Shown: in pieces, positions 3,065-60,261 of the stretch | Layout of the letters: the number at the start of each line of letters is the position of its first letter | How positions within the stretch are numbered: the first letter of the stretch is position 1 | NCBI RefSeq assembly: GCF_026151205.1 | Contig: NC_087079.1 | Span: 14,570,445-14,634,444, forward strand | DNA: 64,000 nucleotides | DNA from: Bolinopsis microptera | Lineage: Eukaryota; Ctenophora; Tentaculata; Lobata; Bolinopsidae | Direction: 5' to 3' | Translations under genes and position numbers: made by a program | The notes under the pieces: generated by a model | Database searches by the model: none | Told to the model about the DNA's origin: nothing | What the model saw: only the letters and a program-made list of their open reading frames with translations

Positions 3065-6000
3065 ATGTATCGGATAGTATTGTGTCTGCTCCTTGTTACT
3101 CATGTTATTCTGGGAGCTGAAGAGAAAGACCTGGGTCTAGACCAAGAATGGACAATTACGGACGAAAACCTGGATAAAACCGTGAATGAAGTGCCAAACT
3201 TTATCGTCTTCGTGTGTGAGTATAACTTTCACAGAAATGCCCTCACTTATACTTCATACTACCGCAAATTGAAAATCACAAACAGTTTTTTTCCATATTC
3301 CTGAGTTTATAAAAACAGGTTTACTAGAGGTTAAATATGATTAAGTTATATGATATAAGTTATAACATAAGTTATAATATAAGTTATATAAGTTATAACA
3401 TAAGACCCCTTAAAGTAGCCAGAACACGAATTATAAAAAATACTGTCCCCTCAGATGTGGACTGGTGCGGACATTGCAAAAGCTTTGCTCCAACTTGGAA
3501 GAAAATTGCGGAGAATCTGAACAACAGTCCAGACTCCAAAACGAAAGGTAAAGATCAACACTTGTCAATAAAACTCTCTCTCTCTTCCCAGCTGGAGAGT
3601 ATTTCTAAGGTTTCAACTTTTGGAGGAGAACGTTTTGACTAGCAAATCTGACAAGTCCAGCCTGACTTTTAAACAGGCTGCATGTTTGCAGTTGTTACTT
3701 TAACTACATTTAAACACCCATCAACAACTTCTGTACACTTTACTCTACTTTATGTAAGAAGGAATATGGAAAGCAATTTTAAGTTTGCCTTTTTTTGAGT
3801 GTTTATCTGTAACTAAGGTTTCAATTCAGTCCGTCTGAAAGTGGATAATGAGTTTTGTCTAACAGCAAAGTAATAACATTCCAATAGCACACCCTAAAAA
3901 TGCTAACTAACATAACTAAACCATAGCTTAACTCCATCACGTACAGTTTTCAGCGCTAACGTAGAAAAGAATAAGCAGATTCACAACAGTAAAGGAGTGA
4001 CCAGTTTCCCTACAATATTCTTCGTACGGAAGGGAGAGTGGAAGCAGTACGCTTCAATGAGAACAGAGGAGAAGGTTCTGGAGTTTGTTAAGTGAGTAGT
4101 GGGTATTAGAGCGGGCTATTAGCACTTTTAAAAGAGGACTGTGTACTAACAGACGTAGAGGACTGTAACAGTTAAAATACGTTTGTGGAGGTCGAGTACC
4201 TGATTGTTAACTTTGAATGCTATTTTATCGGCTTTATCCGTTTTTGCTCCCATTTTATGAAAATGAGAGTTGAAATATCAATCCATAGAACCGTCACAAT
4301 TCATTGCTGACTGGAAAATATGTGTGGGAAGATGTCTATAAATATTATCAATACCTAGAAAACATGAAGAAGATGCAACAATAGTGATAAATCCTGATGA
4401 ACTTGAGGAATTCCTGTCAGGTAAGTGTACATATTTCATTCAATTCTAGTACCTCAAATTCTCCATATCTTAAATATCTCAATATCTCCTGCATATGTTA
4501 AACATGTTACATATCTCAACGATTTGAAGAATCAAACAATTTCACAATTCTAGTATCTGCTGTATCCGTGGTCGGGAAATTCTCATCGGGAAAGGAAGTT
4601 GAGGATTTTGATAAACTGGCCTGGGAAATGGAACTTCCCGCGGCTGCAATACTCTTGGATAACACCCAATTAGATGGAATTACTGTTCATTCTAACGTAA
4701 GAACAAATATTTGCGAGTCTTTATTATGTTGGAGCCATTCTTGTGCTCATTTACTATGCCAAGTTTCCAAGAGGATAAATTGATAGGCCAATTCAAAAAT
4801 GTGTATATCTGAAATGTTGAATCAAATACTGACTCATGGTTTTCTCTATTCAGCTGGAAGGTAAGCCCTACAGGGTTACACACAGGGATCTAACAGACTG
4901 GGAGGGAGTAAAAGAGTTCATAGCACGTGCTAGACGCCCCCTCGTTATACCTTTTAATATTGACAACCATAAAATGGTAGGTTCTTTGATAACCCTAAGA
5001 ACCTTATTTGGACAATCAAATTAAAACTAATCCTCGAAGTATCAACGAAAGAAATGCTATTCGATAAAAAATAATCATAAATCCATTTCAGGTATTCCAG
5101 TTAAAAAGCATATCTACCTCAGTTTTACTTTTCCATGACAAAGATGACGGGTATGAGCAAAGACTCGACATAATGGGTAAGAAAATTTGAAAGGGAGCTG
5201 AATTGAATATTGTGGTTTTTGGCACAGTGGCATAAAGTTTTTTACAGTTTTACCACTCATTTGGCATTAAACCCATTTTATATACTAAACCACATCGTAT
5301 ATCCTCAGGCAAGGCATCTAGGACATACAGAGAGAAATGTAACTTTGTTGAGATGGAGATGAGTGATGAATATGTTATGAGATTTGCAGATTTCTTCAAG
5401 ATCAAAGCGGAAGAACTGCCAATTGTTCACATTTTAGACACGGATAAGGAAAAGAACACTAAAGGACAGATGTCAAGCACTAAGGATCTTTCAGAGAAAG
5501 GTAAGCACAAAAACATAAACCAGGCCAAAAACATGAAAACTTAAAATATGGCATCTTCGAGAAAAGCTTCTAAAATGTTTAATTTACTTAACAAATCTTT
5601 AAAAATCTTAACAATAACAAATCTTAACAAATGATCTCCAGGTATAGCTCAGCTAATAGAGGACTACATGGTTGGAGAAAGTAAGATGTCAACCCCAGCA
5701 CAGCCTGGACAGGCTCAGGAAGGAGAGGACAAGCTACCAGAGGACTGGGACACTAGACCTGTCAAATACCTCACAAGTGAGTAACATGGGTAGCATACTT
5801 AGAGATTCAAGTTATCAATGACCAACTTCAAACTAACTCGATTAGACGATTGGAAGATGAGACTATAAACTTAGAAGAAATGCTACCAAACGGCAATGCT
5901 GTACACACTACACAGAGATAAGAATATCAACTTAGACAAGGATTGTTTTGATTAAGAGTTGAAAATCTTCCCAGGTACAAACTACCCGGATTACGTCCTT

Positions 6001-6659
6001 AACCCAGATAAGGATGTGTTTGTGATGATTTACCGGGATTCTTGTCCTCACTGTGAGACCTTCAAACCAACATGGGAGGAGTTGGCTAAAAAGTAAGTCC
6101 AACAACGATAAAAACGATTTTATTTGGAGTTATGTTATTTGATATAATTTTTTCCCAAGAATTTTGTATTTCTAAGACAACTATGAGTAAACTTCCTTTG
6201 AACTGACCACTGAATGATATAATCCTCTAAGGTATGAGACACACGAAACAGTAAAAATAGCGCACATGAAAAGTCAGCATGTGAAGAACGTGACTGGTCT
6301 AGAGGTTAAGAAAGTACCTACCTTGCTTTTTTACCCCAGAGGGGTACCAGATGTCACTCAAGTAAGTTAAAGTTTGCTTATTATTGTTGAAATTTAAAGA
6401 ATCTTATTCTCAACATTCTCAATCCGTTCAAGCAGTAAAGGGCCGAAAGAAATTGTGTTTAATTTAGGTGACATTTATTATTATTTATTATTTAATAATG
6501 CAACATCGGACTGCACAATGTTCTGTCGCGGTTATGAAAATCAACATCAATTTTCAGGGTCTCGAATATGAAAGAGAAGGGCGATCACTTGAAGACCTTG
6601 AAAATTACCTTAAAGAGGCTGTATTCACAGATGAAGATAGTAATAAAGATGAACTTTAG
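3065..6659 (+). CDS. Protein disulfide isomerase, ER-retained (KDEL), 12 exons
   Basis: Exons: 3065-3215, 3455-3547, 3947-4091, 4359-4420, 4554-4696, 4854-4976, 5092-5176, 5309-5500, 5642-5776, 5975-6092, 6232-6361, 6558-6659. They join in frame to 492 residues, the usual PDI length. The product should catalyse disulfide formation and isomerisation in the ER lumen. It begins with a signal peptide (MYRIVLCLLLVTHVILGA). The first thioredoxin domain has the classic WCGHC site (Cys55/Cys58) and a cis-proline in SFPTIFF. Two middle domains without cysteine pairs follow (b and b'). The last thioredoxin domain carries CPHC (about 400-403) with VPTLLFYP, and the protein ends KDEL. All splice sites are GT..AG. 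The oddity is Pro in place of Gly in the second active site. Family assignment is firm; the exact paralogue (P4HB, PDIA3 or other) is not decided. Confidence 0.93.
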
Positions 6660-6716
6660 GTACAATTGCAGTAAATTTTAATTTCATCTGAAATCATGTT
6701 AGCATATACATATATA

Positions 6717-7483
6717 CAGGGTGGGCCAAAAGTCAGTACCCATATGTTGGCCTTTATAGCTCAGTCACTGAGTGCCCAATTTAAATACTTCTTTCTGGTA
6801 TGACTTAGTACCACCACTGGTTCGAAGAATTTGTCAACTCGAAAAATATTCGCGTTCATTTTTTTCAAATGGAGGTTCATTTTCACATTTATTTGATGGT
6901 TTGGATAGTCGGATCAAGCTAAATGTTATTGAATTGTGTTTGGATTTTCGAATTACGTTTGTCCTGAAAGAATTAGAACTGTAGCTTCTCAGATGACCGA
7001 GATATAAAGCATAACGAGTTTATTCATTACGTGTGATCAGGTGATTGGTTTACCTAATCACGTGATAATGTGACCCCGTTAACTACCCCGTTAAACATTA
7101 TGGGAATTGTTAAGGGTGCCCAATTAAGGTGTCGTGTCACGGTGTCACATAATCATCCAGTCAATTTTGTTAACGAGATACAGAAAATGCTTAATAACTT
7201 CGTTATTTCTAATCCTTTTTGCCTCATGTTTTCAGATCATATGCAACATTTGAAAATCTACCGTCTCTGAAAAAATTAGGCGTTCAGCATGTTCAGAGAA
7301 AACAATATAGGTGTTTTAATATTGAATGGGCGTGGTCTAAAATATTCGAATTTTCAAATTTTGACGACGGAATCCTCGAACCAGTAAATACAGTATGCCA
7401 TCTGCAAAGCAACAGCTCTCAAATATAAAACACGGCGGAGCTATTAAGGCCAACGTATGGGTACTGACTTTTGGCCCACCCTG
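6717..7483. mobile_element. Mariner-type MITE, 767 bp
   Basis: The ends are inverted repeats of about 46 bp that start CAGGGTGGGCCAAAAGTCAG, with about two mismatches. They are flanked by TA on both sides (6715-6716 and 7484-7485), the target duplication of the Tc1/mariner group. The interior shows no transposase, so it is non-autonomous. It lies 60 bp past the PDI stop codon and could touch the PDI 3' end. Confidence 0.88.
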
Positions 7484-8195
7484 TATATATTTTATTTTGC
7501 CTCAAGGGTCTAATACTCTAATATTTAAAATAATTTCTCTTGGTCGTATTAACGTCAACGAAGAGTCTTTATTGAAATTTGCCTCCCTAAGTGATTCAGT
7601 TTGTAATCTAACTCCACCTCTGACCTATTTGACGGCCACTTATATTTTTCATAATCGCACCGGATTTTTTTCGATTTCCCCCTCCTGGCTAAATGAAACT
7701 TGTGAGGGGACAGGGAGCGCGATTATAAACTAATCGCATTGTTTTGAGAACAACCGAAAACATAGTTGGTACGATTACAAAACTAATCGCACTTTTCAGA
7801 AAGTCTGAATATCGTGTTCCGTAATTTGCTGCCCATACGCTTACATAGGTTTACATTAGTTGCACAAGCGTAATGATATAGCTCAATAATATAGTGCCAA
7901 TAAAGAGCCACGTTTGAGTCACAAGAACGAATCATCTTGAGAGATACAGGCCACGTGCCAAGGCGTATTCGCTGCTCTGAGACCCTATGAGGCTTGCTGT
8001 GAGCAGCCGCTGTTTTTTCTTTTGTTACGGGCCCGATATGGCCGAACTCAACAAAGAGCTCCACACTGGGACTACGAGAGCGTGTTGATGGTTATACGTA
8101 TTCCTATTTACTGCTCTGAGGCCCTATAAGGCTCAGTGTGACCAGCCGCTGTTTATTGCTGTTGTTTATTGCCGTGTTGTGGTTTATTTAACATA
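7484..8195. other. Spacer, nothing recognised
   Basis: AT-rich DNA between two transposons. A phrase resembling GCTCTGAG(A/G)CCCTAT(A/G)AGGCT occurs at about 7973 and again at about 8112, so it is partly internally repeated and probably repeat-derived. I see no coding region. Confidence 0.4.
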
Positions 8196-9623
8196 CCTTA
8201 TCGGACCTTATTTGGACGGACATTAAATGAACGGACATAATTATGAACGGACATTAATATAAACGCTAGAAGGCATTCAAAACCATCAAAAATCCGAATT
8301 TTTTCATTTCTTTTGACGTTTTTTTATACCAGCAAATGATCTTTAAATCCATTTTTTATACGATAGCATATAATATAAGCATCTCAATACTCAACACTCA
8401 ATATATTACATTGCAGCAGCCGACCGCAATACAGAACAGTTTTAAGTTCAACGTACAATTTTTATTTTTACATTTTATTGTTACGAAAACCTACTATATT
8501 TATTGTTTCTAAAACCAACTATTTATTGTTACTAACACCTTTTACAACGGTAACTTAATCTCAATACTCAACAATATATTAACACTCAATATATTACATT
8601 ACAGCAGCCGACCGCAGTATAGAACCTTTTTAAGCTCAAAAAATTATTATCAAATTTACTTACTTAGTTTTATCATTTGTTGCTACTATAAACTACTACT
8701 AGCGGGTTCAAAGGGCAATAGACGGCGCGGAACTTATTGAAATTTTGATCTTAGAAAAATATTTTATTACTCTTCTATTATGTTGTCCTTTCAATAAAGT
8801 TGTACTATTAATATAAGCATGAACAACTTTTTCTTTTCTGTAAATATCAGTGTACTAAATTGTGTGAGTCCTATATAATAATGTTTCTTCATGGTACTCC
8901 TAGCGAAAATTACCCGCGTGAACCGAGCGTCCGAGCGTACCCACTTTTGAAAGGTAATTAAAATAGAGTATTCACATACCTTATCTATATAACAACGTCG
9001 GACAATGTCCTTGGCAACACGATTTACCATAATATCTAGAGGCTGGAACAAGTTTGTCATGTTGGCGTGGACTAGCTCATGAACTATGTTGTTGAGTGCC
9101 ATAATTTCGTTAAATTTTTCCGTCCCTTGAAGTGACCCTTGAAAACATCATATACTAGAAAAGTTTTCTGTGCCTCCGGCAGACCAAGGAGAACCTTTTC
9201 GTCGTTAACATACGGCACTATGATGTTCTCGATAAAACGTATTGTTGTAGATTCATTTGCCCAATGTTTCTCGTTAAAAATAAACTTAAAGTCTTTCGAA
9301 AAGAAATGTAGATTAAGATATTGATCATGCCATAATGTGATATTTACAATTTAGATCGTTAAAATTTTACAATAACTACTACTAGTTTTCATTGATATGA
9401 ATAATATATATTAATCTAATGATAGCTATTGAAATTGACTGAAATTAAAAGTTGTCATATACCGGACAAAAAGTTCGAAATGGAAAAATTTTCGAAAAAA
9501 ATTCAACGGACTTTAACTTGGACGGACATTAAATGAAAGGACTTTATTTGAACGGACATTAAGATGAACGCTAGGGCCTCCAGCGTTCAAGTAATACGTC
9601 CGTCCAAATAAGGTCCGATAAGG
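8196..9623 (-). mobile_element. Pogo/Tigger-like transposon remnant, 1428 bp
   Basis: The ends carry an inverted repeat of about 26 bp starting CCTTATCGGACCTTATTTGG, flanked by TA (8194-8195 and 9624-9625). On the minus strand, between about 9330 and 8960, two frames give pieces of a DDE transposase of the pogo/Tigger type. The first reads HWANESTTIRFIENIIVPYV ... LPEAQKTFLVYDVFKG. The second reads NMTNLFQPLDIMVNRVAKD, the usual segment near the last catalytic residue. A frame break near 9105 separates the pieces and the N-terminal DNA-binding part is missing, so it is dead. Subterminal GGACATTAA motifs repeat several times at each end. Confidence 0.8.
8960..9330 (-). pseudogene. Broken DDE transposase fragment (pogo/Tigger-like)
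   Basis: Residual coding frames of the transposon at 8196-9623. The HWxNE...IVPYV block, the FDVFKG-like block and the LFQPLD block are in the order expected for a pogo-like transposase. The frame changes between the second and third blocks. There is no start codon or complete catalytic domain. Confidence 0.7.
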
Positions 9624-9933
9624 TAGTTATTTAACATAGTTATCATAGTTGTAGCTCATTATATCATAATATATGCGATTACCGTACAAATGAGATACCG
9701 AACATTTCCCATCAAGAGCACCGAAGGCGCGACCGGTAATCATTTCCGATATTTCATTCTTTATGAAGGAGCTTGTTAAACATCGCGTAATCTGATACCG
9801 AACTTTATTAAACAGCTGTTCTAACCACGAGAGAAGAAATGCAGTTATTCATTAAGTTAGAATACGTTATAATTTTGCAGCTGTTCAACTTGTCTACCTA
9901 ATCAAATAAACCTGTTCATTTAAAGCTCAAGTA

Positions 9934-10398
9934 ATGTTCCTAGCCGTGTTGATTGTCATACTTGTAAGCATTCAAGTGGTTGGAGCAAACACCAGCACTG
10001 TTGATACCTCAACCATAAAGGAAGATGAGATTATAAACTTGGATGAAACACTCCCAAAAGCCGATGTAGTACATGAAGATAAGAAGAACATGCTTGTAAC
10101 CGAAAATACAGGACCCGAGGATGAAACGATAGATTTAAAGGAAGAAATGCTCATAAAAACAAAATACCATGATAATAACGAACATTTCGAATTCGATGAA
10201 TATGGATATTTCGATGAACATGGACATTTCGATGAACATGAACATTTCGATGAATATGAACATTTCGATAGACATGGACATTTTGATGAATATGAGGACG
10301 ACTTCGCCTTCGAATACATGGAACCCGATGAGTTTATGGGAGAATATGATGACATGTCATTTAATCATCATGGATATGAGGACCACGAAGAACTCTAA
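9934..10398 (+). CDS. Secreted or ER-lumen acidic His/Asp/Glu repeat protein ending HEEL
   Basis: Single exon, 154 residues. It begins with a clear signal peptide (MFLAVLIVILVSIQVVGA). A Thr/Asp/Glu/Lys-rich stretch follows to about residue 85. Then come about five hexapeptide repeats with the pattern (E)(H/Y)(G/E)(H/Y)FD, encoded by an 18-bp repeat at about 10190-10295, and an acidic tail. The last residues are DHEEL, so the protein ends in HEEL, a K/HDEL-like retrieval signal. I know no family for it. The composition suggests low-affinity, high-capacity Ca2+ or Zn2+ binding in the ER lumen, which is inference only. It lies between a PDI gene and a PDI-like gene on the same strand, both with ER retrieval signals. 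It has no cysteines. Confidence 0.8.
   Translation: MFLAVLIVILVSIQVVGANTSTVDTSTIKEDEIINLDETLPKADVVHEDKKNMLVTENTGPEDETIDLKEEMLIKTKYHDNNEHFEFDEYGYFDEHGHFDEHEHFDEYEHFDRHGHFDEYEDDFAFEYMEPDEFMGEYDDMSFNHHGYEDHEEL
10190..10295 (+). repeat. 18-bp coding tandem repeat in the HEEL protein
   Basis: Units close to CATTTCGATGAACATGGA encode H-F-D-E-H/Y-G/E hexapeptides, about five to six imperfect copies. Differences between copies are mostly single bases. Confidence 0.75.
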
Positions 10399-10869
10399 TG
10401 AGCTGTAGTACCAGGAAGAGAAACGGCTGAAGATGTAACTGTACTTTTGTGCTCAAATATTTCCTAGTAGCAAATGTCAAATATCAATGATTGATGACTA
10501 CAGGGATTATATCTATTTATAAGTTGTTCTGAATTAAACCATATCCTTTGAATTAATAATCCTTATGTTAGTAAAGTTAAGTAAATAATTGTGTTATGTG
10601 TTTTTGTTATCTATATCTGTGGAGGGATTTTATTTATTATCTAATATTCATTATCTAATATTTATTATAAAGTCTGCATTATTTTTTGTGTTCGTTAACT
10701 TAAAGTGAATGGAAGAATTCGAGAATTATTGAAGAATTCAAAAAAATCTTGTGAGTCAAACTAGAAATTTCCTGCGTTGGATTAAACATATAAAACAACA
10801 TACGGTGAATAAAGTACAGTACGAAAAATAGAAAAAAATAAATAATTATCCGAACACTATTCCTCTAGA
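10399..10869. other. 3' region of the HEEL gene and spacer
   Basis: AT-rich, no open frame of note. It should contain the 3' untranslated region of the HEEL gene and the promoter of the next gene. I see no clear AATAAA; GAATTAAA-like and GAATTAATAA-like words occur near 10533-10555. Confidence 0.4.
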
Positions 10870-13800
10870 ATGTTTTATGCATCAGTTACGATACATTTCA
10901 TCCTTTTCGTGGCAGTAGCCTCACAACACTACGATTACGACCAACCCTCCGCTCTATTAACAGATGTCACTGATAACACCGTTACGGATCTCATCAACTC
11001 AGCACAATATTTCTTACTCGATTTTTGTGAGTATTACCGCGTGTTTACTGGTATTAGTTTATAGCCATATAGACGACAACGTCAACGAGTTCAAAATTCA
11101 TGATCATATATTTAAAATATAGGCGTCTCTTGTATTCAACAATCCAATACTTCAGATATGTCCAGGAAAGACATGATGATACCAATGGACCCCACCCACG
11201 CAGCGTGCAGTTTCACAGTAGCAGAGAAACTAAAGCACATGTCTCAACTAAAGTTTGGTAAAATAGAAACTAAAAATAATGCTGTGATAAGTGATGAGAT
11301 AGGGATTAAAGCTTCACCGCATGCATCCAAAGTGCTCTTTAAAGATGGGAAGGTTATAGATATTATCAACGCAGGTAAGTGAGAGGCAATAACATTTAAT
11401 TAACAATTAACATTTAACAATTGAACAATGATTTTAGGGATAATATCCGGTAGTAGAGACTATGTAGGACAAGTGAAACTAATGTTTAGGAACAAACACG
11501 AGTTTTCAGTGTGCTACACCTTCATCAGGCTCAAATTATTTGTTATATAGTAGTGTTGAAAGTATTAAAACAATTGAAGACGCCCGGAATGTTGGCATTA
11601 ATATCTGAATTTAAAGTTCTGAAAACCTTAAGTTTGAAGCGGCATACAAACAACAATAAGTTAAACTTGCACAGGTATGAGAGATCTGTACCAACCGAAA
11701 ATGTTGGAGAACTGGATAGTGAAACGGGTCTCAGGTCCAATTTCTGATGCAGAGGTAAGAGTTCAGTTAAACTTGACGGTCAACGACTGTCGGGCTATTT
11801 ATAAACAAGTAACTTATTTGATCAGTCTAATATATCCTGTTACACAAATCGCTAAATTAATCAAATGTACAAGATATTTGGCGTACACTCAACAGATGAT
11901 GAGTCTCTAACAATTACATAATGACTTTCAAAATTAACAAACAGTCAACACTGCAACATTACACCCTCCAAGTCCAAATACAGAAATAAGACCCGCCAAA
12001 ATGAAGGTTAAACGGCTGCGCTAAAAGTAAAAATCACCCTGAAATCCACGCTATAACCCCAACACCACCAATCAGGTCCCGGCTCTCTCAAGCGAAGAAT
12101 CAGTAGTCCTGACCCTCACCAGTACTCCCTCCCCTCTCCTAGCAGCTGCTTCTCTAAAACTCACTAGAATAATGTTCCACCACCAGTCCGGAGAGGTGGA
12201 GTACCAAGGAAGGGTGTTGTTGGAGGGCGGCACCTACGTTATCAGGAACGTGAGTTGAGGGTTATTTGTATCACCTTATTGAGGCCTGTTACTGTCACCT
12301 TGTTACTGTTATAGTTACCTATCACCTTATTGAGGCTAACTCAAGGATATGATTTATTCCAACATTTATAATCCGAGAAGAGATTAGATCCGTTAAGATT
12401 GTGATCGAAAAAACTCGTATCTGAAAAAATCTAATTAATAAATAAGAATTAAGTAAAACAGATAGTGATATTAAACAAAGTTGGCTAGACCTCTAGGGGT
12501 CTTGAAGAAAACTTAAACATCACAAGGTACTTTAAATGTTATTAATAAATGTTATAAAAGCTATCGAAACATTGTACAGGGTCGCCCAAAATTAATTACA
12601 TGTTGAGTGAAGCCTCCAAATGGCCGCCCCTCTAGTGGGTGGGCTATAATAACTAATAAGGCTACGTGTGTTAAATACAGTCCGCATGTATTGTAGAACA
12701 CACACCCTCATGTTATTGAAACACAACTGAAACACAGTAGTTTTTAGGAGAAACCAGTGTGGAGTCAGTGGATCTGGCTGGATCAGAGGAGGAGGTGGTG
12801 GCAAGGATACGAGCCCTAACACACCCCACAATACAGCACGTCGCAACCAGGGTAACTATATAACTATATAGTATAGAACTATATGACTATATAGTATAGA
12901 ACTATATAACTATATTAGTAACCCCGTACTCCGTTCTTGTTGACAAGTAAAAACTGATAAATTACGCTGTGTGACGTCAGTGGAAGAGAGGCGGTAGCAC
13001 GTGGTGTGGGTTGTAGTAGTAGTCGGAGGGAGGCAGTACAAGATATGCAGCTGGTTTCTTTATTTTGATCTTGAGGGGCTACGGGGGGTATTTAACATTG
13101 CAATGTTTTATGGGGGATGAATTATGTTAATTATGTTAAATGTTAGAGACGGTCAAGCTAATGAACTGGTAACATATTTGGCAACAATTCTTTTAGAGTT
13201 AGATGATTTAATGTTGCGTACCGTCTTCACAGTGAAAGTGGATTGTGCAGCTTCCAGAGCTCCAATATTAAGCGTCTAGTCCGGAGTAACCACCGCGGAT
13301 GCTGATAATTATTAATTACCTCAAAGAAATAAGTCCACCGTGTCACATTTATAAATAATTCCGGGCAGGTTTTCACAGAGATTTACTACAACGAACAGTG
13401 GATGTTGGGTCTCCTGGTCCAGGGAGCTGTGTCTGATCACAAGGCTATATTTGATATGTTTATATCTACTCTGGAGGGACTGAAAGAGATGCTCCCCGAC
13501 CCTGCGGTAAACACTAAGTCTTGTTCAAAACATTCAATAAATAGTAAACGTTTGCGAATTACTGAGGAAAAACTGTTTCAATTGACGTGATCGCACATGG
13601 AAAATGAAATTTCTAGGACAGTGAAAACTTTAAAAGTCATTGGTCGTATCCCATCATTAAGATAAATATTTCCAGGAGTTAAGGGGAGTGTACTTGTTAA
13701 ACAACAAAAAGGAGAAAACAGAGGGTGAGGAATTCGACATGGAAGGAGATCGCAATGACAGACTATTGAAACATCTGGATATTGATGACAATAAACGAGG

Positions 13801-16115
13801 CGGACCCACCGTGTTTTTGGTAAACTATCGCAGAAATTAAATCATCGATTTAATTCTCTAATTTATAAAAAGGAGCGTCATAAAATTGGACTTAAACATC
13901 GTTTATATATTACGTAAACCAAAATGCTTTTACTAAAATATTTTCTGGATCATAGCAGCATAGCTATTACTCTATTAGTATTAAATTATTATGCGTAAAT
14001 TGTAAAGTGGCTTACGGAAGAGGGACTAGGGAGGCCGGGAGGTGGTTCAAAATTTAAAAATCTGGCTAACCTAATTTGTGAACGATTCCTTAGTTAAGTT
14101 TAACAATTGGACCGTTATTCAGAAGCATACTTTTAATTTATTAAAGTAAAAATCGCGCAGTTCAAAAGCAACGGAATTTCAAGTGGAGCTGAACCGATAA
14201 AAGCCACCATGAAAACAGAGCTGACAGAACACAACATAAAAACATTCTTCTTTGAACAAGTTCAGAAGAAGCTCCTTGAAGAAACCACGGCGAAGAAACG
14301 CAAAGCGACCAAACGATCTGAGACGATACCTCCAAATTGGAGAGGTAAGAGAGTCGAGGACCGAGGCTTGGATGAAACTATTCAACTGTCTGCATTCCAA
14401 CGTCCAATGAGTTGTTTTGTAGGACTTCTCACACAAAATAGCTGCCATTTTTGAAGTGACGTGGGTCATCTTTTATGTGCTACCATAAAGGGAGTGTAGC
14501 AGTGGAGTGTAAGGGTTGCAGCTTAAGTTACTGTAGCTTTGGGTTGCAGTGTTAGTTACTGTAGCAAGTGGGGGCTCCCACTCAGGCCACCGCGCAGACA
14601 CAAATTCCTATTTGTTTGGTTAATTAACGGTAAAAGTGTATCAATGCTAATCTTAGCATTATTAATTTGTAGTAATCGTGGTAACTGGAACTGCCGTTAC
14701 CAATCAGGCTGGTCTGTTATGATAAATATAATCTTCAATCTTGATCAAGCACACCGGATTCGCATTTGTGCAGTGTGCAGATGTGCAGTCCCAAGCAAGC
14801 CCGATGACAGTTTACAAACGAGCTGCAGACATATAATTATAACTAGCAATTCTCCTCAGCTAAAAAGATCAAGCACATTGTACGGGAAACGCTGGAGGAA
14901 TGGGTATCTGGAAGTAAAGCAGCAGTTCTTATCCTGATCTGTCATGAGACTGTATCAAGCACGCTTACTAAACAGTTCTTATCGATAGCAAAGGTAACAA
15001 ACTAAGAGAGTAACAGAAAGTATGATTAGTAAAAGGTCAGGTCTGAACGGGAAACATATTTTACATAGCAATATGGAAACATTTGTCTTTAACTTGATTA
15101 TAGTTGCATAGTTAAGTCAGATGAAACCTAATTTAGATATTATCTTCCCATTCTCCGGAATATTAGATTTAGTCATGGGTTAGATACCCGTTAGAGATAC
15201 CCAGCTAACTTCAGTAATCGATCTGACTGATTTGACCAAATCACTTGCTACATATTAAAGTCACTATTGTGACGGTACATTGGAACTAGACAGAAACAAA
15301 GTGTGAAGGGCATGAACAGAACCCCTCGGTTTCAGTTATTGTTTAACACTGCCGTACAGCAAGGACATTCGCCGGGTTCTCCAAGGATGGGCACAATTAT
15401 CATCATTCATCAAGATCGAAGACGCTTTTTGTAGAACGGAAAAAATTGTTTCTTCTAAAGAATGAGATACAAATATAATCAAATAATTGAAATATCACCC
15501 TATTACTCATATTTGTGACGTACGTTTAATAAAATTCCAGACTTGATGTGATTTAATAGATCCGATTGGACAGTCGACCTGACAAATTCAGGAAAACGTC
15601 AAAACACACCACGAACAATAATAAATATCCCAGATAGAGAAGAAGTACGCGGGCGAGGTCGAGTTTGGTAAGCTTCACACAGGACTTAACGAGCTGGATA
15701 TAACTTTACCCAACAAGGGGGTTGTTAGGGTCAAGAGGGAGAGTGATGGTCAGGTGAGACACCTAAATCTAAGTTCACTTCTCGTGTAATTATGGAATAC
15801 TCAATGGGTCTGAATTGTTCATTTGGAAAATTAGAAGAAACAGAGAATTACATTATCGATCATCAAAGGATGGGCCAACGAAAAGCCGCTTAAGCAAGGG
15901 TCCTTTAGAGCTTTAGGTCACAAAACTAAATCTTCGATAACTCTGACCGTTATGATAATATTGTGACAGCAATCCAACGATTAAATACGCTGATTAACTT
16001 TAAGTTTAATTCTTACCTGTATTTTCAGATATCAGCAGAGGTCCTCAGCAGAACGATAGACAGCAACCAGCTTGCTAACTTCATCTCTTCTGTTCTTCAG
16101 AAGGAGGAACTGTAG
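10870..16115 (+). CDS. PDI-like protein lacking active-site cysteines, ER-retained (KEEL), 9 exons
   Basis: Exons: 10870-11026, 11156-11374, 11675-11754, 12076-12249, about 12765-12851, 13369-13506, 13676-13819, 15634-15753, 16029-16115. They give about 401 residues in frame. It has a signal peptide (MFYASVTIHFILFVAVAS). The first domain keeps the thioredoxin outline: LLDFY at 49-53, a cis-Pro-like SPH, and VLFKDGKV. Where an active PDI has APWCGHC this protein has MSRKD, so no CXXC remains. A second and third thioredoxin-like domain follow (LENWIVKRVSGP; VFTEIYYNEQWMLGLLVQG). The end is KEEL, an ER retrieval signal. The a-b-b' layout and size recall ERp44, but without its CRFS cysteine. It is likely a chaperone or scaffold without redox activity. 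The start of exon 5 is uncertain; the other junctions keep phase. Intron 7 is 1.8 kb. Confidence 0.8.
12576..12610. repeat. Possible solo mariner terminal repeat
   Basis: TACAGGGTCGCCCAAAATTA resembles the outer end of mariner-type elements (compare CAGGGTGGGCCAAAAGTCAG at 6717). I did not find a matching inverted partner nearby, so this is at most a decayed end inside an intron of the KEEL gene. Confidence 0.35.
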
Positions 16116-16795
16116 GGTAGACAGTCCTTAGGAGAAATTAGCAAGTCTTCCTATCTTCGTATCGGTTGTACGTGACATCGTTGTTCCTATAAGTTGAATT
16201 ATATATAAGTGAGTTATATAAGTAAATGGGTTGGTTTATAGGAAAAGGATATTTTTATTAATTTATGGTTGGTATTTAAGTTTTTTTATTGATGATCTTC
16301 TGATAAGGTTAATATTGAAGTAATCACAGTTAGTTTTTACCGTTTTATTTTAACGATTGATATTGATATCTTCAATACGGCCGGTGTCTATTGCACTTGC
16401 AGAATCATCTTAATTTCAATTTGAAATTTATCGCCATAGATCTGCTGCTATGTACTGCAAAGTTCATCTATATATAACGTATCATAATTCCTCTGCCCAA
16501 AACAAACTAATGCTCTTCACGTACACCTCCAGACCGCTTTACTTGTCACCACTTCATATTAAAACTGGTACTTCCCTACTTTGATTACTTCTTACTTTCC
16601 CCAACTTCCTTTAACCATTTACCCCACTATATAAAGCAAATGCATCATCAGATAAAACTGAATTAATCGCCCTAGCATCTAGTTTATGAACATTATAGCC
16701 CGGGGTACCCAGGTAACGCGATCTAGCATCTAGGCTGTCTCAGTCTTGCAACACACCTCTTATATTCTCCCAAGATATTTGCCCCTATCTAACTT
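16116..16795. other. 3' region of the KEEL gene, no other gene seen
   Basis: AT-rich sequence with no supported exon. It should hold the 3' untranslated region of the preceding gene and ends at the target site of the poly-G element. Confidence 0.4.
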
Positions 16796-17500
16796 GGGGG
16801 GGGGGGGGGGGGGGGGGGGCCAACCATATTAAAGTATATTAAAATGTAGGATTTTCCCCGATTTTGACCCGGGGATATACTTTAATATACTTTAATATAC
16901 TTTAATATACTTTAATATATCCCTATCTCCTTGGAGGCCTACATCAAAAATTGTTGCCCAAAATAAGCTTGAAATGCAATTCTTAATCGATTCCAAAAAG
17001 TTCTTGAAAAATATTGAAAACTGATGGAGTTATTTCAATTTTAATGAAGTCATTTTGGCTAGTATTCCGAACCGAGATATTATGTGCAATTTTCCCAATT
17101 TTGTTCATGGAGGTCTTTTTACTTAGTATCCACTATATTCAACAAACACTGAGTTACATCTTTCACATAGAGTTAGTATCATTAAAAAATATTGAAATTT
17201 TATCGAATTTGGGCAAAAGCGAATTTGGGCAAAAGCGTATGCCCAAATATGGGCATATTTTTTAAAGCTCATAGCTCAGCCAATTTTTGACCAATCTGGA
17301 TGGAAATTCATGTACTAGTCCTAAAACAGGCTTATCTTGCGAATCTGAGTGAAAAATATAGTTCATCATGTAAATCTTAACGAAGAATATAAATCTTCTA
17401 ATTGTAGGTATATTAAAGTATATTAAAATGTAGGATTTTTTCCGATTTTGACCCGCGGGGATATACTTTAATATACTTTAATATGGTTGGCCCCCCCCCC
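16796..17500. mobile_element. 705-bp inverted-repeat element with poly-G/poly-C ends
   Basis: It starts with 24 G and ends with 10 C. Inside these, CCAACCATATTAAAGTATAT is present at both ends in inverted orientation (about 26 bp). The element is flanked by an exact 6-bp direct repeat, TAACTT (16790-16795 and 17501-17506), which fits a target-site duplication. Each end also has its own inverted block that contains ATGTAGGATTTT and iterated TATACTTTAA. A small open frame inside (17014-17265) has no recognisable domain. I cannot place it in a known transposon superfamily. Confidence 0.8.
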
Positions 17501-19091: not shown

Positions 19092-22000
19092 TTATTTTCC
19101 GAACAAGCTGGTGAAGACGATAGGTTTGATTTCATCGTCATCCAAGGAAAGTGAGACTAAGGTACCCCGCTTGATCTGGTTCACTTCAGGACCTGGAATT
19201 GGTAAAACTGTTTAATTAACTTATTTATTTACACGTTAAAAACAACGGCACGTTAACCTTTTCACAAATTTCAGCTTTTAATTCGTCTGACCACGTTTGA
19301 GAAACTGTCTGACAACAACTTTCAACATTAACTTATATATTAGTAAGATATATAGTTTGATATTATAATTTAACCGTATTTTACCTAGCTCTGTCTCGAA
19401 TGTGCTTGAAATCTCCTTTAATACTTTATCCTTCTTAACTCTTCTCCATGTAGTAATAAGACCAGTGGCAATATCAACCTGTTTAAACATGAATTTACAA
19501 AATTTCAGTGCAGAATAATCAACTGACAGTTAAATTGTAGAGTCAATTAAATTGTATATTCAATTAAATTGTAGATTCAATTAAATTGTAGATTCAATGT
19601 AATTAAATTAATTGATTATATTTTGAACTTACGGGTGTGGGAGGAGCGATGGTGAGGACCACAACATTAAACTGTTCGTACTGTTCCGCTAACACACTGA
19701 GGAACTCCTTGGTGTCCATAGCTTTATGTACTGTGTTTATTACTAGGAGTTTCAGGGCGGAGCAGGATTCAGATGTCAGGAACTTCTCACATCTGTCAAC
19801 CAGCTCCAGGTCCTCCGTACCTGGCGTTGTCATGGTTAATGGTTATGTGGTGGTTATGACGTGGTTATGACGTGGTTATGACGTGGTAATGACGTGGTTA
19901 TGACGTGTTTATGACGTGGCTTGTTTGATATTGACGGGTGATATTTGACTTTGTTCGATATTGACAACACAATCTCGTTAAATCACCTGTTATGGATAAC
20001 AGTCATTTTTCAGGAATCGGGATATAAAGTGATAAAGTGTCACAATCAGTGTAATACGTTTGTTTTGACAATCTCGTTAAGCTATGACGTTTCAAACTGT
20101 AAAATTAGTCTTTCAGGATAGTTTGATATGCGTTGAATTCCTACTCTTTGCACTGTCTATTGTCATAAATTCCATATAAAAAACAGATATATGATAATAT
20201 ATCTATATATATTATATATGATATAGAAAACGTACCTGTTATAGTCTTGAACTGGTAGAAGTCCACATCACTGTGGGATGACACACTCTTTAACTCAGGT
20301 GACACCACCATAACAGGGAGCTCCATCTTGACCCACACCTCCACTATCTGCTTAATGATAGAGTTCTTGGCAGCGGCGTCACCTCCGTGGACTAGAATGT
20401 AACTTGGTTGTGCAGCGTTTACATTCAGGAATGTGGAGTCACCTGGTCAGAGAAGTAACTGTTGAAACTTGAAAAGATTAGAGACAAGGTTTGAGACAAA
20501 AACTTGTTAACAAATATGTAGCCGGATATAGCGGCAATTCTGAAGAGATTCATACCTAATACATTTAAAAAGTCAAACTAAGACCGTAAACGAACCTGAA
20601 ATGCCGATGCTACAAGGAGTTCTCCGTGAGGAAGTAAAGAAGGTCGTATAATGCTCCTCTTCCTCTTCCTCCTTCTCCTCTTCCTCCTCATGATCTGCCG
20701 ACTCAGAAGAAGACAAATTCAACTTAGTAAAGGTCTCATCCAATTTGTCCTCCTTCATTCTAGGCGAACTAGCAGCATCACTGGAGACGGACAGATTATC
20801 AACCAGAACGCCAGAAGATCGCCCTGATAACTCGGACTCTGACTTACTGCAAACTACATAATCTGATCCTGACGAGTGTTCCGATCTAGGAGTGTTCTGA
20901 ATCGACTCCAGACCCGGAGGAGCTTTAGAAACGGAAGATGTCTGGTCGACTGACTTTGATGTTTGGAGAGGGAGTTGGGGTATTGTTGAAGCTCCGGATG
21001 AGGAGTTTTCAATTGTATCAGATTCTGAGGGTGGTGTGACGGTCTCAGACTCAGGCTGTGTCGGATTGGTTTCTGGAGATGATGCTGGTTCCCAGACTGG
21101 GTTACTGAGCGGTACTAAAGGTTCAACCACTTTATCCGGGTCAGCAACAACCACTTTATCCGGATCAGCGGGCTGAGATGCTTCGCTTTCTGGTAGTTTC
21201 GTATTTTCGGATATATTATCTGTTTCCGAAGGATCTATATTTAAAACTGGAAGAGAATTTTGATCCGAATTCCGATGGTTTGTAATATTCGGAGTTTCTT
21301 GAGTTTGTGGAACGGTCTCACTACGAGATACTTTGTTTTCAGTAACAGTAGGGTTAGTTTCAACAACATCAGAGATCGGAACTGCTTGATCTGAAGCTAG
21401 GACATCCACTTGATCAGATTTTGCAGGAGGGCTATACAACATATCTTCGAAGTTTGAGTATGAATCTGATGTCTGCTGAGAATCAGGGTTCAGAGACGGT
21501 GTGGATACAAGTTTTGGATAAGAATCGCTGATATCTGGATGTTGTGCGATAGGAGCGCGCATCGGCGGGGGTACATAAGCTCCTTGGGGCGCGTTCACTT
21601 CTGGTACAGAGTATGACGCAGCTGTTTGCTGAGAATCATGGTTCAGAGATGGTGGCGATACAAGTTTTGGATAAGAATCACTGATATCTAGATGTTGTGC
21701 GATAGGAGCGCGCATTGGCGGGGGTACATAAGCTCCTTGGGGTGCGCTCACTACAGGTGCAGAAGACTGGGACACTGGAGCAAGAGATGTTACCGCAGTT
21801 ACTGACGGACTCTTAGTCGACATTACAGGTGCTGTTGTGGGTGTCCTTGAAAGATCAGATACAATGGAAGCTTGAGGAGGAGTCATGGCATCAGGGGTCA
21901 TAGCCCCAGGGACCATGGGTGAAGTAGAAACAGGAGGAGTGCTGTGGCGAGGGTCGACAAACTGGGCCGATGATGGAGGCATTTGTTGTTTGGGAAGGTT

Positions 22001-51289: not shown

Positions 51290-52399
51290 CTAACAACCTT
51301 TGGTCTTTTGGCAACATTTGACCTGTTGTCCACTCTCTACTTTTTTCTTTATAACATCAAAGGGGTTTTCCAGACAATTCCATCCATTACAGCTATCACT
51401 GCTGACATCATTATTATCAACGTTAAACTCAAACTCCTCTGCATATCTAGAGGACAGCAATATATTGATTTTTTCGATTGGAACAGAAGTTTCCACTCCT
51501 TTGAGCAGGGTCAGCACGTGGTCAAAATTGAACAAATCTTCGTGATGTAAAATTTCACCTTTGTATGTTACCAAACCAACCCCACCCTGACATGTTGGAT
51601 CATCAGCTCTAGGCAGGGGTGTCAGAGGTTTAAATAGGCGATATGTGGCAGAACAATATTTGGCATCCCCTAGCATTTGCTTGAAATCTTCTCGAACAAT
51701 TTTAATAGGAGAGCAAGACACTAGACAAGGTGTTGAGTAACCGATTTTGTTGGCTATTTCATGAAGCTGTTTCCAGTGTAAGGACCCAGCAAACCCTTCT
51801 CCCCACAAAGTCTTATTCCCTTTCACAATGTCTGATTGATGAGTGTCTGTATACATGTCAGAAAAATATAGTTCACCTCCTGGCTTCAGCACACTGAATG
51901 CTGCAGATAAGACAGCTTCCTTGTCTGGGCACAAGTTTACAACACAATTGGAGATGATGATGTCGAAATAATCTTTTTCTAATCCAGCGCTCTGAAGATC
52001 TTCAACGTATCCTTCTACAAATTTGACATTGGGTTTGTCAAACCCAAACTTTTCCTGGTGATACTGTATGTAGGTGTTAGCAACATCAACTTGATCTCCA
52101 ATCATATCGATTCCAACAACTTTTCCATCAATTCCAGCTAGTTTTGATACAGCAAAACAATCACGACCACTACCAGAGCCCAGATCTAGAATGTTTGCTC
52201 CATTCACTCTTGGTGGTATGCAAAGTCCACATCCGTAATATTTAGCAGACACATCAGAGTGCACCTCAGAGATAGCTTTGCAAACATATTTGTTATCAAT
52301 TAAGTCTTTCTTGTAGCAAACTTGGCTTTTAAGATCATCTCTTGATTTCAGGACTGTTCCATAATATTCTTTAACATTCTCCAAAATAGAGTCAGCCAT
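51290..52399 (-). CDS. AS3MT: Arsenite methyltransferase, intronless
   Basis: Single exon of 369 residues, the usual length. The enzyme transfers methyl groups from S-adenosylmethionine to glutathione-bound arsenite in the cytosol. The SAM motif is ILDLGSGSGRDCFAVSKLAG (about 70-89), followed by VVGIDMIGDQVDVA. Expected arsenic-binding cysteines are present at Cys28, Cys57 (YYGCGL) and Cys152 (SNCVVNL). The position equivalent to human Cys206 is Gly202 (LWGEGFAG instead of LWGEC), while Cys225 and Cys229 lie nearby. The C-terminal extension ends with extra cysteines (KCCQKTKGC). The frame is intact and the start codon is preceded by TTTTCAGTTAGA, so a 5' non-coding exon is possible. Neighbouring genes have many introns, so a retrocopy origin is worth testing. 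Confidence 0.95.
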   Translation of the reverse strand: MADSILENVKEYYGTVLKSRDDLKSQVCYKKDLIDNKYVCKAISEVHSDVSAKYYGCGLCIPPRVNGANILDLGSGSGRDCFAVSKLAGIDGKVVGIDMIGDQVDVANTYIQYHQEKFGFDKPNVKFVEGYVEDLQSAGLEKDYFDIIISNCVVNLCPDKEAVLSAAFSVLKPGGELYFSDMYTDTHQSDIVKGNKTLWGEGFAGSLHWKQLHEIANKIGYSTPCLVSCSPIKIVREDFKQMLGDAKYCSATYRLFKPLTPLPRADDPTCQGGVGLVTYKGEILHHEDLFNFDHVLTLLKGVETSVPIEKINILLSSRYAEEFEFNVDNNDVSSDSCNGWNCLENPFDVIKKKVESGQQVKCCQKTKGC

Positions 52400-53029
52400 T
52401 CTAACTGAAAATAGCTAACTATTACATTGATGGAAATCTGATAGTAACTCAGAGGCGGCTCGTGGGAGGTGGCTGGCAGTTTTGTTGGGTTTCCAATCGA
52501 CGGACTGGGGAGGGGAGGGGGTGGGGGGACTTGGGGCCGGCCCAAGCTCTCTCCAAACTACCAATTGCATTACACACAGGGCCTCATGTATGTAATGTGT
52601 CACACTTCACAGGCGACAGCAAACAAAAACAAAAACTTATGATATGGGTGAAACAAGACACCACGCGTGTACGATCTCAGCCGCGCAGTATCATAACAGT
52701 CGATAGTTCAAATTGCAAGGTGACCTGGACAAGCAAATCATATAGATTACCTGTAGTGGGATGCGCTTGATGTGCTTTGTACTGTTTACAATTAACTATG
52801 TGTTAAAACTGCATGGCTTAGTTGTCCAAACGTAGGATTGGACGACCAACAACACAAAATTTCACAAAGATCATTTGTGCGCTTTCATTCGAACGTTTGA
52901 GTGAATAAAGAGCTTTATATTGCGATAAGATATTTCCGAAAACTATAACTAATCACTATTTCTATTTTTAAGCATCAGCCACCAGATGGGTGTCCACGGA
53001 CGCCTGGACGACCTCAATAGCCGCCGCTG
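52400..53029. other. AS3MT upstream region with G-quadruplex motif
   Basis: A GC-rich patch at about 52440-52580 stands out from AT-rich surroundings and contains a G-quadruplex-type run (listed separately). It is probably the AS3MT promoter. No exon recognised. Confidence 0.5.
52507..52536 (+). promoter_or_regulatory. G-quadruplex-type sequence upstream of AS3MT
   Basis: Five G tracts of four to six bases are separated by one to four bases, beginning GGGGAGGGGAGGGGG. It lies about 110-140 bp upstream of the AS3MT start codon, with the G-rich strand opposite to the coding strand. Confidence 0.6.
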
Positions 53030-54438: not shown

Positions 54439-56549
54439 TTTATATATTGAGTAAATGTGCCGTCCAGGTGGTTGGTAAAGTGCCCCCGGGGAAGCCTCAT
54501 CAGTACAGCGACGATCCAACTGTCGTTAAACTTTCAGCAGAGAGAAAGTCCCTTCAGCAAGAATGTAGTCTCACAGGGATAAGCGACAGGAGTGACCTCA
54601 GAAAAAGAATCAACCATCTCAAACGTACCATCAAAAAGAGGTTGAAATCCATCAATGAGGCCACTGCTAACGCCCTAGTAGATGTCATCAACAACACCGA
54701 CAGCTGCAGAAGCATGTTTGAAGCGAATAGAACTTTGGCCCAGTGTAGGATGAAGAAAGACGGAGTGACTGTCCACGATGCAGACGGGAACACCTTAGGT
54801 TCTGACTCATTAAAAGCAGAAGCTATTAAAGAATACTTTAATAATGAGTTCAATGACAAAGATGAACCCCACCTCCCAGCATTCATAGACCCTCCTGGAA
54901 GCCTCCTCTGTCCCATAACACCTGAAGAAGTTGGCCGCGCTGTTATGAAGCTGAAATCCGGTAGAGCGTGTGGCCCTGACGGCTGACGGTATACCTAATG
55001 AGCTAATGAAAGCTGCTGGATATCCCCTCCACTGTGAGTTAGCTAGGATCTATAATCTCTCCTTTGAGACCAACACATACATCCCAGCTATTGGAGAAGG
55101 TATCCTGACACCCCTTCAGAAGCCAGGAAAACCCCTGAGGTCCGATAAAGTCTATCCGGCCCCTCACATTGCTAAATGGAACTAGAAAAGTCCTATCCCT
55201 CGTAGCCTTGAACAGAATCAATTACCACGTTGATATGTACACTGGACCTTGGCAGGCGGCATACAAGCAGGGTCGCAGTTGTGCTGACCTGGTATGGTCT
55301 CAGAGAATGTTGACATCAGTGGTTACCAGGCGCGAGTTTGAGTATAGTAAAATCAACATTGACATGACCGCTGCGTTTAATACTATCCGCAGACAGACCA
55401 TCATCAACCTCCTCATTGATGCAGGATGCTCTAGAGACGACATTCGCCTAGTTCAGTACCTCCTCTCAAATACAAAGCTCAAGGTGACGGTCAACAGATC
55501 CGAGTCTGGTGAATTTGTGATTAATATTGGCGCTTACCAGGGAGACAGTCTGGCAGGTAAAGTGTTTACATTGACCCTTGCCGGTGCCCTGAATCACATC
55601 AGAGCCGTGATCAGTGTCACGATTCCTAGACCGAACCCCCCAGTCTCTGATAGAGGCCTCCCGTTAGAGTCCGCCTATGCTGACGATGCTGAGCTTCTGA
55701 GTGAAGATGGTCAGAGCCTGGTGAAGATACTAGAGATTGCCAGTGATATACTAAAGGATTGGAGTCTCTTTGTTAACGAATCAAAGACGGTGTTTACAAG
55801 AGTGTATTTGGCAGATACAGATGCTTTAGATGCCCATGGCAATAAAATTAGAGGAGATGAAGAGTGGCGAGAGTCAGTGCTATTAGGATCAAAGCTCTGT
55901 TCAGAAAGAGATATTGTCAACAGACGCAACAAAGCCAATGTTGCCTTCTACACCTACAAGAAAGTCTGGTTGAATAGTTCTGTTCAGATCAGTGAGAGTA
56001 GAAAGCTGAAGCTGTACGAAGCTCTTGTCACTTCAGTGTTGTTGTATAACTGTAGCAGCTGGGCTGCTCCTGAAACCGTAATGGCATCTGTCGACGTTCT
56101 TCAAAGGAAGCATCTGAGACAGATAATCAACACCTATTGGCCTACGGTTATCAGTAACGAGAACTTATATAAGAGATGTAATGTCAGTCCCCTTACTGAA
56201 AGGATCAAGAAAGCACGATGGAAGATGCTTGGGCACGTTCTCAGAAGCGGTGATGACACTCCCGCCTTCTTATCTTTCAGATTTGCATGTTTAGGATGTT
56301 TTGACTACAAAGGAAGGAGGGGCAGACCTCGTTCAAATTTATTTGATTTATTATTAAAAGACATTATGACAAAACAAATTATTATGATTGTAAATAAAAG
56401 ATTTAGTTTAAGTAATTTCAACGATTTAGTGTACAAAGCTCATGATAGACGTCTTTGGAGAAGTTAAGGGTGAGTCGAGACTACTCGGCCACTCGATTTT
56501 ATGATTTAATTTCTATTATCTTGTGTTTGCTGTATATAGTTGATTAATA
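54439..56549 (+). mobile_element. 5'-truncated LINE with 11-bp target duplication
   Basis: The element is bounded by ATGATTATACG on both sides (54428-54438 and 56550-56560), an exact target-site duplication. It keeps the linker region, reverse transcriptase and C-terminal domain of an endonuclease-type LINE; the endonuclease itself is missing. The clade is not certain (I/Nimb- or RTE-like by appearance). Confidence 0.88.
54447..56467 (+). pseudogene. LINE reverse transcriptase, frame-broken
   Basis: Three frames follow one another. 54447-54986 covers the pre-RT region and ends at KSGRACGPDG. About 54985-55170 continues the finger motif (GIPNELMKAAGY). About 55170-56467 has the palm: FNTIRRQ, GAYQGDSLAG, the catalytic SAYADDAELLSE, then the thumb and a C-terminal region with KKARWKMLGHVLRSGDD. 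The first break is a 7-bp tandem duplication (CTGACGG twice) near 54978. The second is a one-base shift near 55165-55175. The catalytic YADD is intact, so the insertion is fairly young, but it cannot make a full protein. Confidence 0.88.
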
Positions 56550-60097: not shown

Positions 60098-60259
60098 TAG
60101 TTGCTGAATATAATAGGCGAACTTTTCTGTTGAAGATAAAGCTGTCTAGTGTCTATGACATATGACTCTCCACATACTTCCAGACACTACACTCCAAAAT
60201 CAGACAATTTTTTCAAGAGACATTTTTTCCAAACAATAATAATAATAATAATCACCCTT
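60098..60259. repeat. Short spacer ending in an (AAT)n microsatellite
   Basis: The (AAT)n run at about 60233-60252 directly precedes the coding part of the R4/Dong-like LINE. Confidence 0.7.
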
Positions 60260-60261
60260 CA

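Follow-up and report, generated by a model that had tools for sequence, protein, structure and literature searches.

We analyzed a 64,000-nucleotide window of the genome of the ctenophore Bolinopsis microptera (contig NC_087079.1, here C8; C8:14570445-14634444) together with the genome as a whole (264.65 Mb in 232 contigs). Between positions 3065 and 16115 the window contains three successive plus-strand genes, g1, g2 and g3. In our splice models, g1 (3065-6659) encodes a divergent protein disulfide isomerase (PDI) of the PDIA1 type. g2 (9934-10398) is a single-exon orphan whose product is acidic and histidine-rich, and g3 (10870-16115) encodes a PDIA1-derived protein without CXXC. Each product begins with a hydrophobic leader and ends with a KDEL-type tetrapeptide. 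A sequence-only reading of this DNA had described three consecutive plus-strand genes ending in KDEL, HEEL and KEEL, each with a signal peptide. The reading frames and ends are all present as described. All three products have a strongly hydrophobic N-terminal stretch, with Kyte-Doolittle maxima over nine residues of 3.3 (g1), 3.9 (g2) and 2.8 (g3).

Retrieval-type tails of the three products

The KDEL end of g1 is located at 6645-6656 and the KEEL end of g3 at 16101-16112, both from the splice models and a six-frame scan. The HEEL end of g2 is located at 10384-10395. In all six frames of the window, the pattern [KRHQ][DEST]EL stands directly before a stop codon three times, once in each gene of the trio. 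We extended the survey to the window plus 20 loci, 199,086 bases in all, in which locus L001 shares sequence with the window and L002 is contained in L004. In this sample the stricter pattern [KRH][DE]EL precedes 9 of 18,387 stops. Three of the nine belong to g1, g2 and g3, and a fourth is the g2 end counted a second time in L001. Of the other five, L012 contributes two, and L005, L010 and L015 contribute one each. One of the L012 pair is a REEL whose surrounding stretch is interrupted by stop codons, and it is probably a chance occurrence. Because such ends are this infrequent among stops, we regard the tails of the trio as real signals and not chance.

How surprising three tails in a row are also depends on the proteins that bear them. 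Human PDI-family tails include KDEL, KEEL, RDEL and others (PMC8026947; papers cited here by PMC number are drawn on in excerpt). The B. microptera genome has 62 exon-wise matches to the thioredoxin domain PF00085, two of them in g1. We surveyed the tails of 13 other thioredoxin-domain regions (L005 and L009-L020), for which the complete gene model is that of PDIA1 only. In six of them an open frame after the last thioredoxin domain ends in HDEL, REEL, KDEL, KSEL, HSEL or RDEL. The other seven comprise one short and doubtful match (L018) and six regions without such an end. Since PDI-family proteins normally end in this way, KDEL and KEEL on g1 and g3 are what any PDI pair would be expected to carry, and HEEL on g2 is the only independent surprise. 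The earlier argument that agreement of three in a row is unlikely by chance is thus correct as to frequency, but it counts two tails that sit on PDIs, where they are expected. For human FKBPs, HDEL or HEEL is given as the canonical retrieval signal (PMC8248988).

The genome encodes a KDEL receptor, with three PF00810 matches at C6:7796107-7798153. All three products combine a leader with a C-terminal KDEL-type tetrapeptide, the sequence features of KDEL-receptor cargo, and we infer that they are localized to the endoplasmic reticulum (ER). The proposed physical linkage of ER-directed genes is found here as three neighbors with retrieval-type signals. A larger ER cluster was considered and rejected. 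The window holds no fourth [KRHQ][DEST]EL end, and no PF00085 match is listed in the 10 kb upstream (exon-wise search, E up to 0.01).

Relation of g1 and g3 to PDIA1

g1 comprises 13 exons joined by GT-AG introns (3065-3215, 3455-3547, 3830-3869, 3954-4091, 4359-4420, 4554-4696, 4854-4976, 5092-5176, 5309-5500, 5642-5776, 5975-6092, 6232-6361 and 6558-6659) and encodes 503 residues. Its spliced translation has a CGHC active-site motif in the a domain (3466-3477) and a CPHC motif in the a’ domain (6043-6054). Pfam Thioredoxin matches it in two stretches (E 9.2e-30). The best match in the PDB is a protein disulfide-isomerase chain, 8eoj (E 1.5e-40, 142.6 bits), and the domain model TIGR01126 (pdi_dom) scores 115.5 bits, above its cut-off of 107.2. 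The canonical PDIA1 of the same genome is located on contig C6 (C6:6238498-6244257). It has 491 residues, two CGHC motifs and an HDEL tail, and scores 507.7 bits to 8eoj and 502.4 bits to the ER PDI family model TIGR01130. Because this gene scores far higher on 8eoj, g1 is read as a diverged PDIA1 paralog, not as the canonical family member.

g1 resembles PDIA1/P4HB in its leader, its retrieval tail, a four-domain layout indicated by sequence match, and two CXXC motifs. It retains the proline of PDIA1’s GYPT and GFPT in both domains. It differs in its a’ site, which reads SCPHC, and in the residue before both active sites. In the alignment, the glutamate of PDIA1’s VEFYAPWCGHC is replaced in the two g1 domains by F and by M. 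The buried acid of the PDI active site assists proton transfer. Its replacement makes slower turnover or longer-lived mixed disulfides plausible. Judged from these residues, g1 probably keeps disulfide exchange, probably with altered kinetics.

g3 comprises 11 exons, again with GT-AG introns (10870-11026, 11156-11374, 11675-11754, 12076-12249, 12741-12851, 13369-13506, 13676-13819, 14161-14344, 14860-14993, 15634-15753 and 16029-16115), and encodes 515 residues. Its local alignment score against C6 PDIA1 is 98, compared to a mean of 39.0 for shuffled sequences (standard deviation 5.1, maximum 58, n=300; z 11.6). The alignment shows 22.7% identity and covers the a, b, b’ and a’ regions of PDIA1. 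When g3 was aligned to a two-sequence PDI profile with hhalign, 349 columns were matched with E 2e-5 and a probability of 77%; the single control, an unrelated methyltransferase, gave E 0.85. The NCBIfam thioredoxin models match g3 at a (E 1.3e-4) and a’ (E 0.0033), both far under the curated cut-offs.

Intron positions point in the same direction. Introns 1, 2, 4 and 8 of PDIA1 coincide with g3 introns in alignment column and phase in two of three MAFFT alignments, and introns 1 and 4 do so in the third. When the g3 introns were placed at random with their phases kept, the observed count was reached in 0, 0 and 3 of 2000 trials for the three alignments. Intron 6 of PDIA1 is at most two columns from g3 intron 7 in every alignment, and intron 5 agrees with g3 only after gaps are shifted by eye. 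By these comparisons g3 is homologous to PDIA1 over several domains. The earlier proposal that the outer two genes are PDI-related therefore stands, for g1 by Pfam and for g3 by similarity, profile match and intron positions, though not by Pfam.

Refinement of the g3 model altered splice sites only and no base. The exon 4 donor at 12253 was replaced, after comparison with PDIA1, by a GTGAGT donor at 12249. With the acceptor at 12741 the following exon is 111 bases long, as in PDIA1. An earlier exon 4/5 junction was discarded, as the downstream frames broke.

The 515-residue product has no CXXC and just two cysteines, at residues 70 and 430. In this favored splice model g3 is read as a PDIA1-derived, catalytically dead PDI that keeps several PDIA1 intron positions. 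We class it as a derived relative and not as an enzyme because it has no CXXC and because redox-inactive PDI relatives exist. One of these is PDILT, a testis-specific and heavily glycosylated protein with the non-classical motifs SKQS and SKKC and a KEEL end (PMC3500226). It does not oxidize or reduce disulfides (PMC3500226; PMC8026947). g3 shares with it a PDI-type build, non-classical a and a’ sites and KEEL, with redox inactivity of g3 suggested by its sequence; unlike the heavily glycosylated PDILT, g3 lacks any N-glycosylation sequon. The two proteins may resemble each other by convergence. A second such relative is ERp27, an ER PDI-family member without CXXC that has b and b’ domains only (PMC3500226). 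g3 likewise has no CXXC, whereas it aligns to PDIA1 over a, b, b’ and a’. By analogy, g3 would most likely act as a client-binding chaperone or adaptor without redox chemistry. No report of a redox-dead PDI or of a PDI gene cluster in ctenophores was found in a literature search, in which the sources were available in excerpt.

The sequence-only reading had suggested that the pair arose by tandem duplication of a PDI gene. This is not borne out by the comparisons. Each of the outer genes is closer to C6 PDIA1, with a local-score z of 67.6 (g1) or 11.6 (g3), than g1 and g3 are to one another (z 2.8). Their direct score of 56 is below the best of 300 shuffles, 67. It is nevertheless conceivable that g1 and g3 are direct tandem duplicates that have diverged nearly beyond signal, with g2 born between them, and we consider this a doubtful but real possibility. 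The two genes are adjacent, on the same strand and both PDIA1-like. Their first introns interrupt the same tyrosine codon (T|AT), and their fourth introns are at the same place. In one of the three alignments, g1 intron 7 also coincides with g3 intron 5, in a column where PDIA1 has no intron. Against this, the two other alignments contain no intron exclusive to g1 and g3. The other introns that the two genes have in common are also present in C6 PDIA1 and are therefore ancestral. The weak direct similarity also argues against direct duplication.

PDI genes are known to be linked to RhoGDI genes in vertebrates, and the pair is unlinked in ctenophores (PMC5722932). Such a linkage was considered here and rejected: three RhoGDI matches are located on C6 near 3.49 Mb, which is 2.7 Mb away from PDIA1 and not within the window.

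The acidic orphan g2

g2 is an open reading frame (ORF) of 154 residues on the plus strand. Its C-terminal half (10180-10395) is rich in acidic residues, histidine, phenylalanine and tyrosine and, in translation, consists of hexapeptide repeats of the HFDEHE/HFDEYE type that end in HEEL. From residue 19 on, 46 of the 136 residues are acidic and 13 are histidine. This part has an isoelectric point of 4.2 and no cysteine. A search with g2 gave no Pfam match. The middle gene had been described as unrelated to its neighbors and acidic, and this agrees with both results. Elsewhere in the genome we found no convincing relative, only low-complexity or weak matches. Two matches on contig C5 were rejected as paralogs. 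The first falls in a tandem repeat of the YVHFDK type in a minus-strand frame and was judged to be of low complexity, and the second is weak (E 0.2).

In an AlphaFold model the mean predicted local distance difference test (pLDDT) score of g2 is 44, and the leader helix alone is confident; the model was made from the single sequence without an alignment, hence it is weak evidence for disorder. The g2 chain is probably disordered by this prediction. Calsequestrin, the calreticulin tail and the histidine-rich calcium-binding protein (HRC) are acidic lumenal calcium buffers, and HRC is rich in histidine. g2 resembles them in its very acidic, presumably lumenal chain, and HRC also in its histidine content. 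It differs from them in having no detectable homology or predicted fold. Judged from its composition, the simplest role for g2 would be that of a lumenal buffer for calcium or some other cation. Calsequestrins appear in the PDI-family table of PMC3500226.

An orphan of which roughly half is repeat-like could be an ORF that arose by chance across an 18-base tandem repeat and does not encode a protein. This would also explain why neither Pfam nor the genome offers a relative beyond the low-complexity and weak matches. With g1 and g3 as the training set for a codon model, however, g2 scores +0.28 in its own frame and negative in the other five. The same holds for the non-repeat part by itself, which scores 0.273 in frame and no higher than -0.097 in any of the other five. 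The leader peptide and HEEL are placed exactly at the two ends of the ORF.

A further observation against a chance ORF comes from intron 10 of g1. A stretch at 5790-5918 on the plus strand, when translated, is colinear with g2 residues 8-51, and it matches the non-repeat part of g2. At the DNA level, 5852-5905 and 10020-10073 are 79.6% identical over 54 bases (E 4e-6). By tblastn the fragment is 36% identical over 44 residues, with E 3e-4 for the non-repeat part of g2 and 0.002 for the whole protein. Taken together, these observations make a chance origin of g2 unlikely, and we treat it as a gene.

The open frame of the intronic fragment starts at 5781 and has no methionine ahead of the match, and its codon score is below zero in all three frames. 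Because of these two properties the degenerate fragment is most likely a decayed partial copy. It is also possible that it serves as an alternative last exon of g1.

History and possible function of the locus

We favor, with some confidence, the explanation that the locus consists of two fast-diverged PDIA1 relatives, a probably redox-competent g1 and a redox-dead g3, which flank an orphan, acidic and lumenal g2, and that it came about through local gene birth. PDIA1-type copies would have moved or been duplicated into the locus, and g2-like sequence would have been copied locally. Transposon-like elements would have been inserted between g1 and g2. Two such elements are found there. The first (6710-7490) has 53-bp terminal inverted repeats whose arms are 96% complementary, and the second (8194-9625) has 28-bp terminal inverted repeats whose arms are 100% complementary. 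Three ORFs from the stretch between g1 and g2 were tested and gave no transposase match. In this scenario g1, with its two CXXC centers, would still exchange disulfides with altered kinetics. g3, both centers lost, may work as a non-redox client-binding chaperone or adaptor, as proposed for PDILT and ERp27. The probably disordered g2 would serve as a lumenal buffer for a cation such as calcium.

Several results weigh against this explanation. For g1, TIGR01130 matches residues 30-494 at 186.8 bits, and its cut-off of 344.25 is not reached. For g3, Pfam Thioredoxin matches neither splice version, no match to TIGR01130 is listed, and the sequence matches in the PDB (thioredoxins, ERp44 and PDIA6) all have E 0.3 or worse. 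Homologous genes guided the choice of its acceptors (11156 and 12741) and of the final donor of exon 4, and the match at g3 intron 4 is therefore not independent. A rival acceptor at 11123 also leaves the g3 frame open and would restore a CVSC motif. We prefer 11156 because FY then falls where PDIA1 and g1 have the intron-split tyrosine. For g2, there is no homolog to establish that it is a gene, and by eye its ATG follows a weak splice acceptor, unlike the ATGs of g1 and g3.

The acceptors also bear on whether the trio is a functional unit. Its linkage might be kept through co-expression, for instance within a single type of secretory cell or through a polycistron resolved by spliced leaders, with the products cooperating as oxidoreductase, redox-dead chaperone and cation buffer. 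The genes are on the same strand and carry three successive retrieval tails, and 471 bases separate the g2 stop from the g3 ATG. By eye, the ATG of g1 and that of g3 each directly follow a good splice acceptor, in a phylum in which trans-spliced leaders are widespread (PMC8527503). However, an acceptor-like AG is also found near the ATG of C6 PDIA1 and of a methyltransferase gene in the window (see below), so this feature is not specific to the trio. The gap of 3.3 kb between g1 and g2 holds the two transposon-like elements. By the account in PMC7986045, no operons had been reported from ctenophores, and the few motifs scanned gave no shared promoter element. On balance we think such a unit quite unlikely. 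A more specific form is that the trio is a ctenophore-specific co-expressed ER module, perhaps made as one spliced-leader-resolved transcript, in which an altered-kinetics PDI, a dead PDIA1 derivative and a cation buffer would serve a specialized secretory cell such as a gland cell or colloblast. To this we give even less credence. If it were true, a redox-dead PDI would have evolved independently, in parallel to mammalian PDILT. The idea that g3 is a decaying pseudogene, suggested by the loss of both active sites in the favored model and the low identity to PDIA1, is the least probable of all, given 515 open codons across 11 exons, GT-AG introns and an intact KEEL end.

Under the favored explanation, two diverged PDIA1 relatives around an orphan, the unusual points of the locus are the redox-dead PDIA1 derivative and g2. 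If the models hold, ctenophores have a full-length, catalytically dead PDIA1 derivative of their own, with a KEEL end, beside another divergent PDI and an acidic orphan protein directed to the ER. Loss of redox activity with retention of the PDI scaffold would then also have arisen far from vertebrates, and the trio would be a marker set for specialized secretory cells of comb jellies. The clustering itself would be significant only given co-expression or conserved gene order.

Motifs of the unfolded protein response (UPR) type are few near the trio. Upstream of g1, ACGTGG occurs once (2831) and CCACGT once (2133), and none of the motifs scanned occurs in the 471 bases before g3. The ER stress response element (ERSE) was rejected as a UPR promoter element, as its sole match in the window, at 11182, is inside the coding sequence of g3 exon 2. 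Farther downstream, at 19857-19918, six copies of TGACGTG form an 11-base tandem array in an apparent intron of a minus-strand gene (about 19100-20440). These copies resemble the UPR element TGACGTGG. An imperfect 61-base palindrome (88.5%) is located at 2588-2648, about 420 bases upstream of g1.

A leader-like motif was searched for in the genome with up to two mismatches. It has 38 matches, 12 of them in one tandem array, compared to 14 for a reversed control. The sequence TAAACTATTTAATTTGAGGT occurs eight times across six contigs (C1, C2, C4, C6, C10 and C12) and is a candidate end of a spliced-leader RNA gene. At C8:7889748-7895419 there is a tandem array with a similar motif, spaced by about 513 bases.

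Downstream of g3, an element of about 700 bases (16785-17500) has inverted ends that start in long G and C runs, and it carries TATACTTTAATA repeats. Its segments 16810-16843 and 17467-17500 are an inverted match of 100%. Two plus-strand ORFs with a reverse-transcriptase match (PF00078) are located at 55139-56467 and 60166-63150, the second open for 994 codons; both are probably non-LTR (long terminal repeat) retrotransposons. A thioredoxin-domain gene is found at C7:11090108-11092400 and, in the opposite orientation, at C123:17189-19481 with nearly equal scores, and the pair reflects either a recent duplication or a haplotype contig left in the assembly. The methyltransferase gene of the window is a single-exon ORF on the minus strand (51290-52414, about 374 residues, Pfam Methyltransf_31), which we take to resemble arsenite methyltransferase.

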